Shown: positions 1 through 10,150 of the stretch, piece after piece
Layout: the number at the start of each line of letters is the position of its first letter
Numbering within the stretch: the first letter of the stretch is position 1
Assembly: GCA_951802195.1 (NCBI GenBank)
Contig: OX637626.1
Location: 1-64,000, forward strand
DNA length: 64,000 bases
Direction of reading: 5' to 3'
Source: Tausonia pullulans
Lineage: Eukaryota; Basidiomycota; Tremellomycetes; Cystofilobasidiales; Mrakiaceae
Position numbers and translations under genes: made by a program
Notes under the pieces: generated by a model
Databases searched by the model: none
Seen by the model: the letters and a program-made list of their open reading frames with translations, nothing else
Told to the model about the DNA's origin: nothing

Positions 1-250
1 ACCTACCGACCCAACCTACCGACCCAACCTACCGACCCAACCTACCGACCCAACCTACCGACCCAACCTACCGACCCAACCTACCGACCCAACCTACCGA
101 CCCAACCTACCGACCCAACCTACCGACCCAACCTACCGACCCAACCTACCGACCCAACCTACCGACCCAACCTACCGACCCAACCTACCGACCCAACCTA
201 CCGACCCAACCTACCGACCCAACCTACCGACCCAACCTACCGACCCAACC
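1..250. repeat. Telomere-like array of a 13-bp unit
   Basis: Perfect tandem array of acctaccgaccca, about 19.2 copies with no mismatch seen, stopping abruptly at position 250. The G-rich complement, tgggtcggtaggt, has three G-tracts per unit. The C-rich strand reads 5' to 3' inward and the array reaches base 1 in phase, as expected for a left chromosome end. The unit differs from the common fungal TTAGGG. That it is the telomere itself, rather than a subtelomeric satellite, is inference from position, orientation and homogeneity. Confidence 0.8.
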
Positions 251-585
251 AGAACTCCAGCACAGGTACTAGGAATCGGAGGAATTCGCCTGCGCTCACG
301 AGTGGGAGGGTTTGAGATGTACTTCACGATCTCGGAGGTCTATCACATCTCCGGGTTCGCAAACCTCATCAGCATTGGACAACTCGGCAACAAAGGAGTC
401 GAGACGAGATTCTCCAAGAGGGCGTTTAAGCACGAGATCGCTCGAATAAATATACTGAATACGCTAAACGGATGTGACCAGTAGTACAATTGTCCATGCC
501 GGCTCGGCTCGCACGCAAAGATGGACGATGAAACACAAAAAAAACGATGACAGCTATCCATGTGGAGGTGGTCCATTCCGACCCT
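251..585. other. Telomere-proximal spacer without a gene
   Basis: About 335 bp separate the array from the stop codon of the first gene. I see no convincing coding frame; the small open frames here lack support. It serves at least as the 3' flank of the calpain-like gene. Confidence 0.5.
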
Positions 586-3603: not shown

Positions 3604-4668
3604 ATGGTAGTCAGAGTGCAGATCAAAAGGTACGATTAGCTGAGTGTCAGGATCTCACGCATTCACCACATAGGATCCGAGCCCATTGGCTGTGAGAACC
3701 TCGCGGATTCACCAATAGGCTACGCGCCTGTGTAGCATCTGTTGGAAGGAGCGATTCACGGAGACCTATAATCTAGTAATCTCCATCCCTTTGTCCTCGC
3801 TTTCTAGTACTTTCTACGCCACTCGGTCAACCATATATGAGCGGGTAGATTCGAGTAGCTGTATCAAATAAGCTTGCAACCACATTGGACCCCAGGGCGA
3901 ACATAGACCTGCAACAGCATCGCCCTTGTTGCTCGGCTCCCATATCTTCAGCCTCTCTTCAGCCCCACTATCCCACACTCTTTGTTTTCTCCTACGCCCC
4001 TCTTCTCACCCATCCCCCTCAGTCATTGCGCCTTGGGCCAATCCTAACAACAAGCCCGTCGCGACCCATCGACAGAAGATCTCGGGCGGGTGGTCATACT
4101 TACTTTGCCAGCCGAGTGTTTGACGGATAGACGACCATTATGAGACACCTCGAATCCGCCGGTATCACGACTCCAGAACCAGAATCCACACGATGCCAAG
4201 CTCAATCCACCTCGGAGAGTCTCCGCTATCGCCTCAAACGAGATCTCGCAGTCGCGTCCCCAGTGAACGGGGAGTCATTGTCTACCTGCTGTTGACGATC
4301 GAGCGAAGAGCGCCGCTTCTTCCTTGTCGACGACCTTCAAGATGGTCTCGAACACGAGCTTGCTGTCAGTGCGCGTATTAACTGTGCTCATCAGCGTCGG
4401 ATTCAAGCGGAGAGAAGACTATGCCTTCCCTGTGCATCTTCTATGGATCCGAGCTGTCAGGCCATTTGTCGTCGAGATATGGGACTCGCTCTCCAAAGTC
4501 CGGCCTCAGGGTATAGCACGGGCGCCGAAGCTCCCCCTTATGCTACTCCCTCTATGCCTTTTCACAATGTCAAACTCAAGTCGAGCTCAACAGGGTCTTC
4601 TTTCTCCGCTGATTCTGCCAAGCCCGTTCCCTTGGCTATGGTTTCGCTAGATAGTAGATAGGGACAGT

Positions 4669-4700
<32 letters not shown>

Positions 4701-4738
4701 CAATTAGATGACGAGGCATTCAGCTACTTTGAGTGAGC

Positions 4739-4769
<31 letters not shown>

Positions 4770-5044
4770 TTTGACGTTCTTCACTTTGACAATCACAGCA
4801 TTGGGCAGAAATCAAACTGCGTTAAAACCACTTTCTGGCCATCGCAATTCTATGTTTTAATCACACTCAGATGCCCCTTGTCCGGACCAGTTCTAAGTTG
4901 ATTGTTAATCGTACGCCGGACGCCGTGAGGCAAATGAAGCCGTTCACAGCAGTCCAGAGGCAGCTCGGCCAGGGTTGCCCCCAACCTACCGCCCAAAGTC
5001 CGCCCAACCTACCGACCCAACCTATATCTTTGGCGCGTCCGTGC
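3604..5044. other. Gene-poor subtelomeric stretch with short repeats
   Basis: About 1.4 kb with no gene I can support. It holds a copy (about 3995-4060) of a segment that recurs at 11050-11115, a 16-bp inverted match gttaggattggcccaa at 3443 and around 4033, and the interstitial telomere-like repeat at 4979-5026. Several overlapping plus-strand frames (3885-4661) lack any domain. Confidence 0.5.
4979..5026. repeat. Interstitial telomere-like repeat 1
   Basis: Contains ccaacctaccgcccaa followed, after a short gap, by cgcccaacctaccgaccca and caacct. This is one degenerate and about two good copies of the terminal 13-bp unit, in the same orientation as the end array. It begins 18 bp beyond the stop codon of the CHR transporter, i.e. 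on the telomere side of that gene. Confidence 0.8.
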
Positions 5045-7451
5045 TCAATGAGAGGTGACCCCATACCACGCCAATCCACCTACAAGTCCTCCCGCGATCC
5101 CTGCCGGCGCCGGCACGCCAAACCACTCGACGCCGACAAAAGTTGCTGCGACGATGGACACCCAAAAGCCGTCCGAATCGAGCGAACGATAAATGGCCGG
5201 GACGGACGGATCTGCATGCGAAGACGAGATGACGCCGACCCGAAAGAGGCGGTAGATGGCGGCAAAGATCTGAAGTGCACTCGAGGGGTCACAAGATTGT
5301 CAACCAGGAAACTTGGGGGTAAGTTCAGACCGCGCAAGGCGCGGGCGGGGAAGGAAGAGAGAGAACAAGAGACGCACAAGTCCGACAGCAGCCGCGTTGA
5401 GCCCCCTAAGCACGCTCCTCGTTACCCTGCTTGTTCGCCACTTCAGGTAAAACGGTAGGGTGCCGACTTTGAGGATTAACCCTGGGGAGAAGATGCCGAG
5501 AAGCGCGAGGACTGCGCCAATCAAAGGCTGAGATGGAAGTGCAAGGACACCGAGGAAGACAGCGAAGTTGAATACTGGGCCGGGCAGGGCCTGAATAACT
5601 GGCGACGGCGGATGAGGGAAAAAATGAAATATTAGTAATCGGCCCGGAGGGAGGGAGGGGAGAAGACGCCGTTGTGCGGGCGAACGGGCAAGACCGATCA
5701 GGAAGTCCCGCGCAAGGACCCTTTGCTCACAACGGAGTTCGAATCAGCATCTCTCAACTGGCAGAAGCGAACGCGGGCATTAGATGTGTACTTACCAGCC
5801 AGGATCGACCGTGTACCCCCTCAGCAAAGGGATGACAACCGGCCCTCCGCCAAAAATGAACGTCCCTGAGCCCGTAGACACTCTCGCCGTCAGTTTCTGA
5901 GCGCATTCCAAAGAGAGTGAGGAGGGACAGGACACACCAGCCATCAACACGTTGGTGAAGAAGTCAAGCGCACGGGTGGGGGTAACGGTAGCGCGCGCGA
6001 CGACGACGGCAACGAAGAAGGCGACAAAGGACGCGCACCTTACGGTCGGAGGACCCCGTCAAGAGTAAACAGAACGGTCGAGTGAGCAAAGCGGACGTCG
6101 AGGAGTAGAAGAGAGAAGACAGGGGGAGGAAGAGACGCACAGGATCAGCCCGCCCTTCACGCCCAATGTGAAATAGAGCGACTGGTGCAGGCCGTCCTCA
6201 TGCTCGCCGTCCTGCGCTTGCGCATGGGAAGGACTGGTCGTCATGATCGTCGGCGTTTCGTTGGACGCCGACGCAAGGGGCAGGGAGGGGACGTTGTCAA
6301 GCGGATTGTCCCGGGAGGAAGATGCAGGGGACGCGTCCTTGTCGTCCGGCGAGGAGGGCGCTGCGACTGGGGCGGCTGCAGGGGCAGACTCGACCCTTGT
6401 CTCCAGCTCCACTCCGCCGGCATCAGAGTCTTCGCCCCCCCTCCTGCCACCCTTCCTGCCTTTGATGTCTTTCCACTGCCTCCCCACGCGTCTGCGCACG
6501 CCCATCGACCGGTCCCATGCGAGCGTCAAACTCCCCCCGGCGACCATAATCACCGGGTACAGCCATTGACTCTCGTAGCAGCTCGCGACCGCCCCACTCG
6601 CCAGCACGATCAGGCGCGTCAGCGGGTCTGTGATAACCTTCCCGGAGAGCGTGTAGGCCGAATGCGCGATCAGGCCGACAGCGGCGCTGTTGAGCCCGGA
6701 GAAGAGGGCGTAGACAATGGGTGGAAGGGCAGGAGGGAGGGAAGAAACGGCGAAGCCGATGCCGAGCATCGCAAGTGCGCCTGGGCCGCTGTGGGGGGGA
6801 ACGGGGGGGCGGTAGTAAGTAGATACCCGCGAGGAGGAGGGTGTGTGGGTGCGGACGTGAGGAGTACAAAGGAGAGCAGAGCAGGTAGGATCCCTCCCCT
6901 CAAGAGCGAGATCGCGAACGCGAGCTGCAAACAATGCGCACCAGGTTCCTAAAACTCAGTCGCGTTCTCAACGAGTGCAATGTGCGCAGACAGCAGGACG
7001 GCACAGACCTGGCTGAACGCCGGCCCGGGCAGCGCGTTTCCCAAGGCAAAGAGGTCAACAAACGTCCGCTCGTCAACCCACTTGTGCTGGACGACAAAAA
7101 TCTATTCGAAGATCCGGGCGAGGCCCGCCAGCTGCGTCAGTAGTCGTGCGAAGAAGTGAGTTGGCGAGGACCGCGATGCGCACCTTGCGCAGCTGGACGA
7201 TGTTGGCTGCCGGACCTGCCAACTCAAATGTACCCAGACCATTGTCAGCAGATCGCCCATTCTCCAGGCTCCAGACGCGCATGGATAAAGCAAAGAGAGG
7301 GCGAACCACCGATGGCGAGGAAGCCGAACGGCCCAAAGTAGCGAATGACCTCAGCCATCCGGACTGCGAGCGACCGCCTGCGCTGCTCTGGCTCCAGCTC
7401 CTGTCCTCCCTGCGAGGAGGGCGTCTGTTCGTTCGCCGAGGATGAAGACAT
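5045..7451 (-). CDS. Chromate-type (CHR family) anion transporter, two CHR domains
   Basis: Multi-exon gene. The start is taken at the ATG at 7451 (MSSSSANEQ); the stop at 5045 follows GGLAWYGVTSH. The first CHR domain is recognisable from VIRYFGPFGFLAIGG, KWVDERTFVDLFALGNALPG, LLRGGILPALLSFV and ALFSGLNSAAVGLIAHSAY. A hydrophilic Ser/Ala/Asp-rich loop of roughly 100 residues (coded near 6190-6480) links it to a second domain with FIFGGGPVVIPLLRGYTVDP, GIFSPGLILKVGTLPFY, VLRGLNAAAVGLV and VEWFGVPAPAGIAGGL. Two homologous halves are typical of the long-chain CHR family, whose characterised members move chromate and sometimes sulfate; the substrate here is not shown by the sequence. It sits beside cystathionine gamma-lyase, which suggests, weakly, a link to sulfur metabolism. 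Exon borders in the middle are approximate. Confidence 0.85.
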
Positions 7452-7921
7452 GCTGGTTTGGGCGTTGCGGGCTCGAGAAAGTCCAATGTCATGACCTGCT
7501 TTAGACGGTTTGACGTAGGAGGGGGGTGGGTAGCGTGCCAAGGACTGTCGATCGCGCGGCCTGACCGGCGAGAGCAGGCTGAACGAACGTGCGTCTGCTG
7601 GAGGGGTCCGCTGTGTCAGGGCGAGCTACAAAGGAAGGAAAAAAGAGAGGGTGAACAGCTGGATGAGCCCGGTGAGGTTGTTTTGCTGGTGAGAGTAACG
7701 TCGGCGAAAGGAGACTATCAGACTTGTGTAAGCAGTACACCGTTAACCGATGCCCCTCCCCCTCTGCCAACTCGACCTTGCGCCTGGCGAACTCGGGGCC
7801 GGTGTAGCTTTTTCCTTGCTCACTCAGCATTTTCATTTCTTCGTTCCCTTGGTTTGTCTCATCTGTTCCACATTCCTTGCTCTCGGGTCCTTCCCATGCC
7901 TGCCCCCCCCCCGTTCTCATC

Positions 7922-8041
7922 CTTGTCCATAAAGCGCAGTTCATCGTAGATTTTTGCTCTGCACTCTGATTATCATTTGGATTCGACATACCTGCCCAAG
8001 ACCTTGAAGCAAGCATGTGCCATTGCCAGCACTTCAGTCCA
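7922..8041. repeat. Subtelomeric duplicated element, copy 1
   Basis: Shares a collinear stretch with 10892-11011. Anchors include gtccataaa, cagttcatcgtagattt, tatcatttgga and agcacttcagt/accacttcagt, with small indels. Identity looks like roughly four fifths by eye. Both copies lie in the same orientation, about 3 kb apart. Confidence 0.75.
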
Positions 8042-8047
8042 TTCCTC

Positions 8048-8072
8048 CACCGACCCAACCTACCGACCCAAC
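8048..8072. repeat. Interstitial telomere-like repeat 2
   Basis: ccaccgacccaacctaccga and the following cccaac give nearly two copies of the terminal 13-bp unit, in the same orientation as the end array and directly abutting copy 1 of the duplicated element. The other copy of that element has no telomere-like tail. Confidence 0.75.
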
Positions 8073-8219
8073 GCATTGCATTGTGTGCCGTTGATCAAAT
8101 GTCTCTTAAGATTGACCTCCTCAGTTTTTGTTTACGGTCTTTGAAACATCTCCACCTGAAACAGATTATATAGACCAGGAACATACATCCAAGGAATAAT
8201 CGTCGAATGGAAGGGAAGA

Positions 8220-10150
8220 TCAAGTTGAGGGCTCGGTAGCGGCCTTGAGAGCCTGGTCGAGATCGGCCATAAGGTCGTCGACGTCCTCGAGCCCAACGCT
8301 CATACGGATGAGGTTGGGTGTAATGCCTTGCTCCATGCGGGTTGCTTCAGGGACGCCCTGTGGAGGATTAAACGAGATATGGAAACGGGAGAAAAGGTCA
8401 GACAGATGAGAACACATTGCAGAGACAGTTGAAGGGAGGTCGAGGAGAGAAGGGGAGGGGACCGACTCGGTGGGTCATCTTGCAGGGCAGCTCAGCGAGG
8501 GTTTCGACGCCTCCGAGGGACTCAGCGAGCGAGATCAAGTTCATTGACAGGAGGAACTTCTCGGCTGTGGGAGGGAGGGGAAAGACGGTATTAAGAAAGA
8601 GGATAAACCAGACATGATTGTCAGGATTTGATGAGACAAAATGAATATCTCGAACTGAGAGTGGAGAGACCACCTTGAAAGAAAGAACAAACCTTCCTTA
8701 TCTCCACCCTTGATTCTGAAAGAGACCATTCCCCCGAACGGAATGCCCCCTTCCTTGACATCGTTCCAGTTCTGGCGAGCGAGAGCCCTGTTCATCTGAG
8801 GGCTCACGATCCGCTTTGCGAGCGAGAAGTGGGGATGCGACTCTAGACCCGGGTAGATGGTGTCTTGGACGCAAGGATGGGTAGAGAGGAATCGGGCGAG
8901 AATCAACGCGTTGGCGCTGAAGGCTAAGGTTCGAACGGAGAGAGTTTTGATGGATCGAAGGGCGAGGAAGCAGTCGAAGGGGGAGGGAACAGCGCCACTG
9001 GTTTGTTTATTAGATAATCGAGTAGAAAAGGTCAGTTTGGGAAGATGAAGGAGGTTAGGGTAGCAGGGAAGGAGCCTGAGCAAGAGAGGGGACTTGCATC
9101 TCTTTCTGGAGGAACCAGATGTCGTCCGCAAGTTTGGTGAGACCATGTCGGACGACGATGGCACCGCCGAGGACATCCGAATGACCACAAATTGACTTGG
9201 TGGTGGAGTGGATGATGACGTCGGCGCCAACAGTGAAAGGGTTCGAGATGAAGGGATTCAGAAAGGTCGAGTCGACGCTGACAAGAGGCTTCTGACCCTC
9301 AGGTCGGGTAGGAATGAGACTGGTGATGCGCTCAATGTCGACGAGCTTGAGTGTCGGATTGCTGATCTGCTCGAGGTGGACAAGTCGAGTTGCAGGAGTG
9401 AAAGCGGCTAGAAAGCCATCATCCGTGAAGGTCTCGAGGTCGAGGTAGGTGACAGTGACGTTCTGGATCTTCTGGCAAACGGTGGAAAGGAGCTCGTAGG
9501 TCCCGCAGTCTGTCATTCATGATGAACGAAGGGGAGGGGAGGGAAAGGCAGACGCGATGAGCGCTACCGAGCTGAGGGCTAGCCAGGATCACAAGAGACA
9601 CCGTGACTCACAGACATCGCTCACGCAGATGACATGAGCTCCATGGCCGAGAGTTTGGATTACCGTCGTCGTCGCTTTACAGGATTAACTACTGTCAGCT
9701 CTGGCACCAGGTGATAAGGGAGGGGGAGAACAGGATCATACCAGCACTTCCAGAGGCGAACGCGAACGCCCTCTCTCCTCCCTCCAGAGAAGCAAGAGAG
9801 AGTTCAAGGCCATCCCTGGTAGGGTTCGAGTCCCTACTGTACTCATAGCCCGAAGTGACTCCCACAGCTGCGTTGACGAAGGTTGTAGAGAGCGAAATGG
9901 GAGGGACAACGCTGGAATTGGAACGCGAACTGTGAGCTCAGGACGCTACCAGAAACAAGACGAGGGGACTCACGCGCTAGATCACAATCAGTCGCGATTG
10001 AAGGGACAATAGAGGATCATGATGAGCTAAGAGAAGGGGAAGGAATGGATGCTCAATGAAGAATGCGACCGCTCACTTGGTATGAGGATCAGGGGCGCTA
10101 CCGGCGTGAACAGCTCGGGAGTCGAAGTTGAGCTGAGTGTTTTTTCTCAT
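8220..10150 (-). CDS. CYS3: Cystathionine gamma-lyase (PLP-dependent, transsulfuration)
   Basis: Multi-exon gene from the ATG at 10150 (MRKNTQLNFDSRAVHAG) to the stop at 8220. It belongs to the Cys/Met-metabolism PLP enzymes. Diagnostic stretches are RAVHAGSAPDPHT at the N-terminus, VVPPISLSTTFVN, GYEYSRDSNPTRDGLE, AFAFASGSA, NPTLKLVDIERITSL, FISNPFTVGADVIIHSTTK with the pyridoxal-binding Lys, then GHSDVLGG, SHPHFSLAKR and IRMSVGLEDVDDL near the end. The order and wording match yeast Cys3, which splits cystathionine into cysteine, 2-oxobutyrate and ammonia in the cytosol. Cystathionine gamma-synthase is the main alternative, but the SVGLEDVDDLMADLDQAL ending favours the lyase. The pyridoxal-site aspartate is in SVDSTFL, with Ser where VDNTF is common. 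Confidence 0.9.

Follow-up and report, generated by a model that had tools for sequence, protein, structure and literature searches.

The window analysed here, a stretch of 64,000 nucleotides, corresponds to C7:1-64000, so that the tandem array with which it opens lies at a contig end (Table 1). On window positions 1-250, TRF gave a period of 13 with 100% matches and no indels, which confirms the approximately 19 perfect 13-bp copies read there by an earlier note on this DNA. The unit is TTGGGTCGGTAGG on the G-strand, and the exact string TGGGTCGGTAGGT, searched as one rotation on one strand, was not found in the literature. Further inside the window, an LSU rRNA pseudo-fragment is followed by a short interstitial telomeric stretch and then by a second, separate telomeric match. 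A chromate-transporter gene on the minus strand (PF02417 within 5300-5743 and 6059-6955) lies between these two telomeric pieces, as if segments had been added onto former chromosome ends. The GC content of the window is 52-67% per 2 kb, and genes of the assembly are broken up into short exons.

Table 1. Telomeric and rRNA-derived features of the window and internal matches to the 13-nt unit elsewhere in the assembly.
Feature	Location	Strand	Remarks
Terminal telomeric array, 19.2 perfect copies of ACCTACCGACCCA (C-strand)	window 1-250	+	left telomere, contig C7
First unique bases beside the array	window 251-262	+	12-base flanks different at 33 of 33 capped ends
LSU rRNA pseudo-fragment	window 4456-4979	-	87% identical copies at C16:796815-797399 and C13:25079-25615
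Interstitial telomeric stretch (exact matches of 12 nt and 22 nt, 11 nt apart)	window 4980-5024	+	fused to the LSU fragment; orientation as in the terminal array
Internal unit match, 22 nt	window 5003-5024	+	part of the 4980-5024 stretch
Exact unit match, 24 nt	window 8049-8072	+	orientation as in the terminal array
Internal unit match, 23 nt	C3:504267-504289	+	outside the subtelomeres
Internal unit match, 18 nt	C5:945347-945364	-	outside the subtelomeres; exactly four whole modules
Internal unit match, 24 nt	C1:2168229-2168252	+	9.9 kb away from the right end; reversed relative to the terminal orientation
Internal unit match, 25 nt	C16:796815-796839	-	4.1 kb from the right end

The host encodes a type I FAS beta subunit, whose PDB relatives are ten fungal-type FAS beta or dehydratase sequences, and is therefore a fungus. 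The Sin3 protein of the window scored 362 bits against Moniliophthora roreri with BLASTP and 270-271 bits against the best PDB SIN3 with phmmer, these being scores of one protein from two different programs, and it has a 99% identical counterpart in a metagenome. As far as these sequences go, they weakly suggest that the host is probably a basidiomycete; an SSU rRNA fragment might point to Pucciniomycotina. The assembly has 23,855,473 bases in 21 contigs, 20 of which are of chromosome size; the remaining one, C21 (18.8 kb, 50% GC), carries bacterial-type rRNAs and many tRNAs and is the mitochondrial contig.

We then examined the ends of the chromosome contigs, fetching 3 kb from each. Of the 40 ends, 38 of which are readable, 33 terminate in the 13-nt unit, in arrays of 152-278 bp (mean 221); left ends show the C-rich strand reading inward, and right ends the G-rich strand reading outward. 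An exact 26-mer made of two units occurs 205 times in forward and 243 times in reverse orientation in the whole genome, and the 40 end loci hold exactly these matches (205 at left ends, 243 at right ends, none in the wrong orientation), so that all 448 are located in terminal caps and none is internal. This count would register any perfect internal run of at least 38 nt, and the longest internal exact match to the unit that we found was 25 nt. The same 26-mer read backwards had no match on either strand of the assembly, and the double unit had none in the viral (viral_contigs) or prokaryotic (genome_contigs) collections. Three consecutive TTAGGG units were not found anywhere in the readable assembly, and two consecutive units were absent from the 40 end loci, which thus do not carry canonical TTAGGG telomeres. 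Hence the left-telomere orientation proposed in the earlier note, and its expectation that the unit should cap most contig ends, are borne out, and neither of the two observations that it had named as fatal, TTAGGG at the other ends or a mainly internal location of the 13-mer arrays, was made. In summary, the repeat is terminal, its G-strand runs outward and it forms no internal arrays, as is the case for a telomere repeat.

The array is absent from the left ends of C3, C5 and C11 and from the right ends of C8 and C9; the outer 3 kb of the left ends of C17 and C20 consist of N throughout. Subtelomeres share dispersed pieces, with similarity in 138 of the 703 pairs formed by the 38 readable ends when the outermost 300 bases are set aside at every end. 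Three of the five uncapped ends (C11 left, C9 right and C5 left) terminate within such common pieces, C11 left being 96.7% identical to C9 right over 2.1 kb and 97.6% identical to C5 left over 0.64 kb, and C3 left has an SSU rRNA fragment 1.9 kb from its end. Because these four ends lie in common pieces or near an rRNA fragment, their missing caps may reflect the limits of the assembly, an explanation that does not extend to C8 right.

A profile search for the telomerase reverse transcriptase gave a Telomerase_RBD (PF12009) match at C11:1159315-1159581 on the minus strand (E 2.2e-17, 67.4 bits, cut-off 25), which covers profile positions 14-99 of 133 and is interrupted by one in-frame stop that we attribute to an intron. 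The open frames around it carry TQFYVTESAAF, GIPQGSNLSTHLCSFFYAHMEKKHLGF and LVDDFLLVTT, which we take to be the TERT motifs T, B' and C. Taken singly, the frames of this region score below the cut-offs (PF12009 17.8 bits, RVT_1 13.1 bits), and a comparison of the single frames with the PDB found no telomerase. A TERT gene is present in the genome. The POT1 profile had no match here, nor in any of the control genomes, so it is uninformative about the end-binding proteins.

On the G-strand, the arrays can be split into three modules, TTGGG, TCGG and TAGG, with only 74 of 7,223 array bases left unparsed, mostly as partial modules at the tips. Among 1,612 steps from one module to the next, 1,583 are regular and 29 (about 1.8%) are irregular: TCGG to TTGGG (10), TCGG to TCGG (8), TTGGG to TTGGG (4), TAGG to TCGG (4), TAGG to TAGG (2) and TTGGG to TAGG (1). 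When the register is scored instead of the modules, 39 junctions are out of the 13-nt phase, and excluding the seven that lie no more than 12 nt from a contig tip leaves 32 register breaks, three of which (around TCGGG, TCG and TTGG) are not module steps. At least one register break is found at 19 of the 33 ends, and so the perfect homogeneity stressed in the earlier note holds for the array of the window and fails for the arrays of the genome as a whole. Of the 32 breaks, 29 switch right after GGT. An overlap of 3 nt (GGT) between the old and the new register is seen in 28 of the 32, compared to 6 of 102 possible jump types, an excess with p of about 1e-30 if jump types are equally likely, from which the true odds may differ. 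The breaks are also concentrated in the inner half of the array (29 of 32; by thirds from the inside 21, 10 and 1). Misalignment of telomerase at GGT, together with renewal of the tip, would be expected to leave such a record. The irregular units fit a realignment of a primer with a GGT 3' end on a template that has three ACC sites, and this pattern strengthens the templated synthesis that had been proposed from the homogeneity of the array.

We also looked for a preferred register of synthesis. The first whole module beside unique DNA is TTGGG in 20, TCGG in 9 and TAGG in 4 of the 33 arrays (p 0.002 with equal odds, 0.018 when weighted by module length), and the irregular steps land before TTGGG in 14, before TCGG in 12 and before TAGG in 3 of 29 cases (p 0.03). 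Array starts and slip landings together suggest, from small numbers, that the usual register puts the primer just before TTGGG. The exits of the slips are biased as well, since 18 of the 29 irregular steps leave TCGG, as against an expected one in three (p 0.0014).

We conclude that the array is a working, telomerase-made and non-canonical telomere of this fungus, with a probability of about 0.94, because of its location and orientation, the absence of internal arrays, the 33 different flanks at 33 ends, the absence of three consecutive TTAGGG units, the presence of TERT and the slips at GGT. Counting against it are the five ends that carry no array, the in-frame stop in the TERT match with its weak single frames, and register clues that point to different telomerase RNA candidates. 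In the mechanism that we propose, a telomerase RNA template no shorter than 14 nt, and likely of 18-24 nt, would direct the synthesis of TTGGG-TCGG-TAGG, and the DNA 3' end would be realigned on it after each round or after an early release. As every module ends in GG and the next one begins with T, a GGT 3' end could pair at three places on the template, and pairing in the wrong place, in about 1.8% of the recorded steps, would lead to modules being skipped or repeated. Renewal would keep the tips regular, while slips would be retained in the older, inner part of the array.

Maintenance that relies mostly on recombination (or on copying by rolling circle) and not on telomerase, which the pieces common to many subtelomere pairs could favour, is very improbable given that slips are inner and tips regular, that TERT is present and that no multi-slip pattern recurs between ends when the module strings are compared by eye. 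We give equally little credence to a subtelomeric 13-bp satellite at which the assembly stops, with the true telomere lying beyond it: the arrays are indeed short and the contigs do end within them, but this reading, like that of an assembly artefact, is rejected by the terminal location, the single strict orientation, the different flanks and the lack of any internal array in the genome, and the satellite also by the missing TTAGGG runs, the TERT gene and the slips at GGT.

The earlier note had called for a telomerase RNA whose template spans 1.2 units or more. We searched for it with five template patterns, each requiring a mismatched flanking base so as to exclude the arrays, and by reading the fetched loci; by our own estimate the patterns have a chance of about 25% of missing a given template (about 6% with a second set), and they are blind to templates shorter than about 15 nt or with a mismatch. 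The search returned the internal matches of 18-25 nt listed in Table 1, as well as shorter matches of 13-15 nt on C4 and C14, at C7:328.5k and in a repeated stretch on C6, C13 and C15. No telomerase family was found in Rfam, either at the gathering threshold (C3, C5 and C1 loci, the window and the 40 end loci) or at E up to 10 (C3, C5, C1 and C16 loci and window 7400-9000). A home-made, unvalidated pseudoknot scan of the 450 nt downstream of six candidates, with 120 segments as background, gave scores for C3 and C1 that are reached by 15% and 14% of the background, respectively, and zero for the other four. Local folds were not better than shuffles for three of the six (C3, z -0.25; C5, z 1.01). 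Internal matches of this length are present in the genome, but none has the support of Rfam, folding or the pseudoknot scan, and the register clues disagree among the candidates.

It is quite possible, though short of probable, that one of the subtelomeric matches provides the template (window 8049-8072, window 5003-5024 or its C16 copy, or the C1 match), or that a shorter or imperfect match missed by the patterns does so. The 24-nt match of the window would have a template ending at TCGG, the exit of most slips, but it predicts the register before TAGG, the rarest among both starts and landings; the window 5003 and C16 matches are copies of a single LSU fusion, and Rfam recognised no telomerase RNA in the subtelomeric candidates. 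Window 8049-8072 is less likely to be a template than a relic of a former end. The C3 match, which lies outside the subtelomeres, is a tentative candidate; in its usual register the primer would end directly ahead of TTGGG, the commonest array start and landing. Against it, a 275-aa frame has its stop 5 bases before the match begins, and the final 227 codons of this frame align gap-free, at 96%, with one metagenome protein that has the same end; the locus lacks a fold, pseudoknot or Rfam signal, the exit bias of the slips points elsewhere, and the match may be a telomeric insertion. The C5 match is a doubtful candidate. It consists of whole modules only, an 18-nt match in any register being expected by chance about 0.01 times per genome (our own estimate), and it is preceded on its own strand, at a distance of 785 nt, by the stop of a formate-tetrahydrofolate ligase (C1-THF synthase) gene, a location past a protein gene that resembles those described for Ustilago ter1 and a putative Malassezia gene in the available parts of the reports (PMC10035886, PMC12506658). 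However, the register that it implies, with the primer ending before TCGG, comes only second among both starts and landings, and the match too has no fold, pseudoknot or Rfam signal in its favour.

A more comprehensive reading can be put forward only tentatively. A basidiomycete lineage would have wholly dropped TTAGGG for a composite 13-nt telomere, the three diverged T-N-GG(G) modules of which would serve as interchangeable landing sites, with realignment on as little as GGT; the register of healing, the slips and the 22-25-nt insertions would then define a template, at C3 or C5, that lies away from the subtelomeres and next to a protein-coding gene, like those of Ustilago and Malassezia. 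The exit bias of the slips, which fits neither C3 nor C5, makes this reading less probable.

The four subtelomeric matches (C1, C16, window 5003 and window 8049) are most readily explained as relics of former ends or of repair, and the interstitial stretch next to the LSU fragment of the window would be such a relic. The telomere-LSU fusion of the window is also found at C16:796815-797399, and a third LSU copy, at C13:25079-25615, reads GGATTGGGTACGTCGGGG at the expected place of the telomeric stretch, which we presume to be LSU-like. We speculate that a telomeric 3' end once joined a telomere-like site in rDNA, the product then spreading between ends. Diverged LSU fragments are located at window 4456-5024, C16:796815-797399, C13:25079-25615 and C13:970275-971006; all five matches of the LSU search lie at most 26 kb from contig ends, and two copies are fused to telomeric units at an identical point. 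At C6:29.8 kb, C13:32.3 kb and C15:9.4 kb, a similar stretch ending in CCCTTTGTG precedes a telomere-like match of 13-15 nt, and C6:1238.1 kb has in common with these three only the match and a few preceding bases. The rRNA pieces in the fetched loci are partial copies. The sole 5.8S rRNA match found in the assembly, at C8:1294449-1294568 (120 bases, 72.6 bits), has no SSU or LSU match beside it within the 9.9 kb read, and the assembly may lack the working rDNA array.

A 13-nt unit in what is probably a basidiomycete would imply an independent replacement of the telomere, and so a change in the telomerase RNA and perhaps in the end-binding proteins. With a unit of this length, pattern searches can locate the telomerase RNA, and a unit of three modules leaves a readable record of telomerase realignment, from which the template becomes predictable from DNA. 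According to the available parts of the literature, TTAGGG is widely kept in Basidiomycota, while it is the budding and fission yeasts whose telomeres have undergone runaway change (PMC7952879, PMC6341069). In the portion of the TelFinder report at hand, 21 Basidiomycota have mostly TTAGGG, with the variants TTAGGA, TTGGA, TTAGTG and TTAGGGGG, that is, motifs of 5-8 nt (PMC10100673), and TTAGGG is also the unit described in Microbotryum lychnidis-dioicae, Rhodotorula pacifica and R. taiwanensis; the accessible TeloBase text does not mention basidiomycetes. The telomere described here is like these in being a terminal G-rich repeat with one unit per species, probably in the same phylum, but its unit has 13 nt and does not contain TTAGGG. 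Long units are described in the accessible text on Ascomycota, with TTNNNNAGGG in Yarrowia (10 nt), TTAGGGTCAACA in Aspergillus (12 nt), CCGTTGCTGTTG in Drechmeria (12 nt) and units of up to about 34 nt in budding yeasts (PMC6746865, PMC10100673, PMC6341069). They are likewise long, mostly homogeneous and copied from a longer template, but they belong to what is probably another phylum, and the unit of this fungus is made of three T-N-GG(G) modules that are respected by the slips. In Allium, the available excerpt describes a 12-nt telomere, TTATGGGCTCGG, the RNA of which was found by searching for the unit plus 1 nt (PMC12133305); this is an independent swap of a short repeat for a long one, as here, but in a plant and with a proven RNA, compared to the candidates proposed above. 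The telomerase RNA genes of Ustilago and, putatively, Malassezia, which the excerpts place downstream of a protein gene as in the case of candidate C5, serve short repeats instead of a 13-nt one, and C5 is a putative gene at most. Hence, relative to the repeats covered by these partial sources, the 13-nt unit is probably a variant new to the reported basidiomycete telomeres, long fungal units being already known elsewhere.
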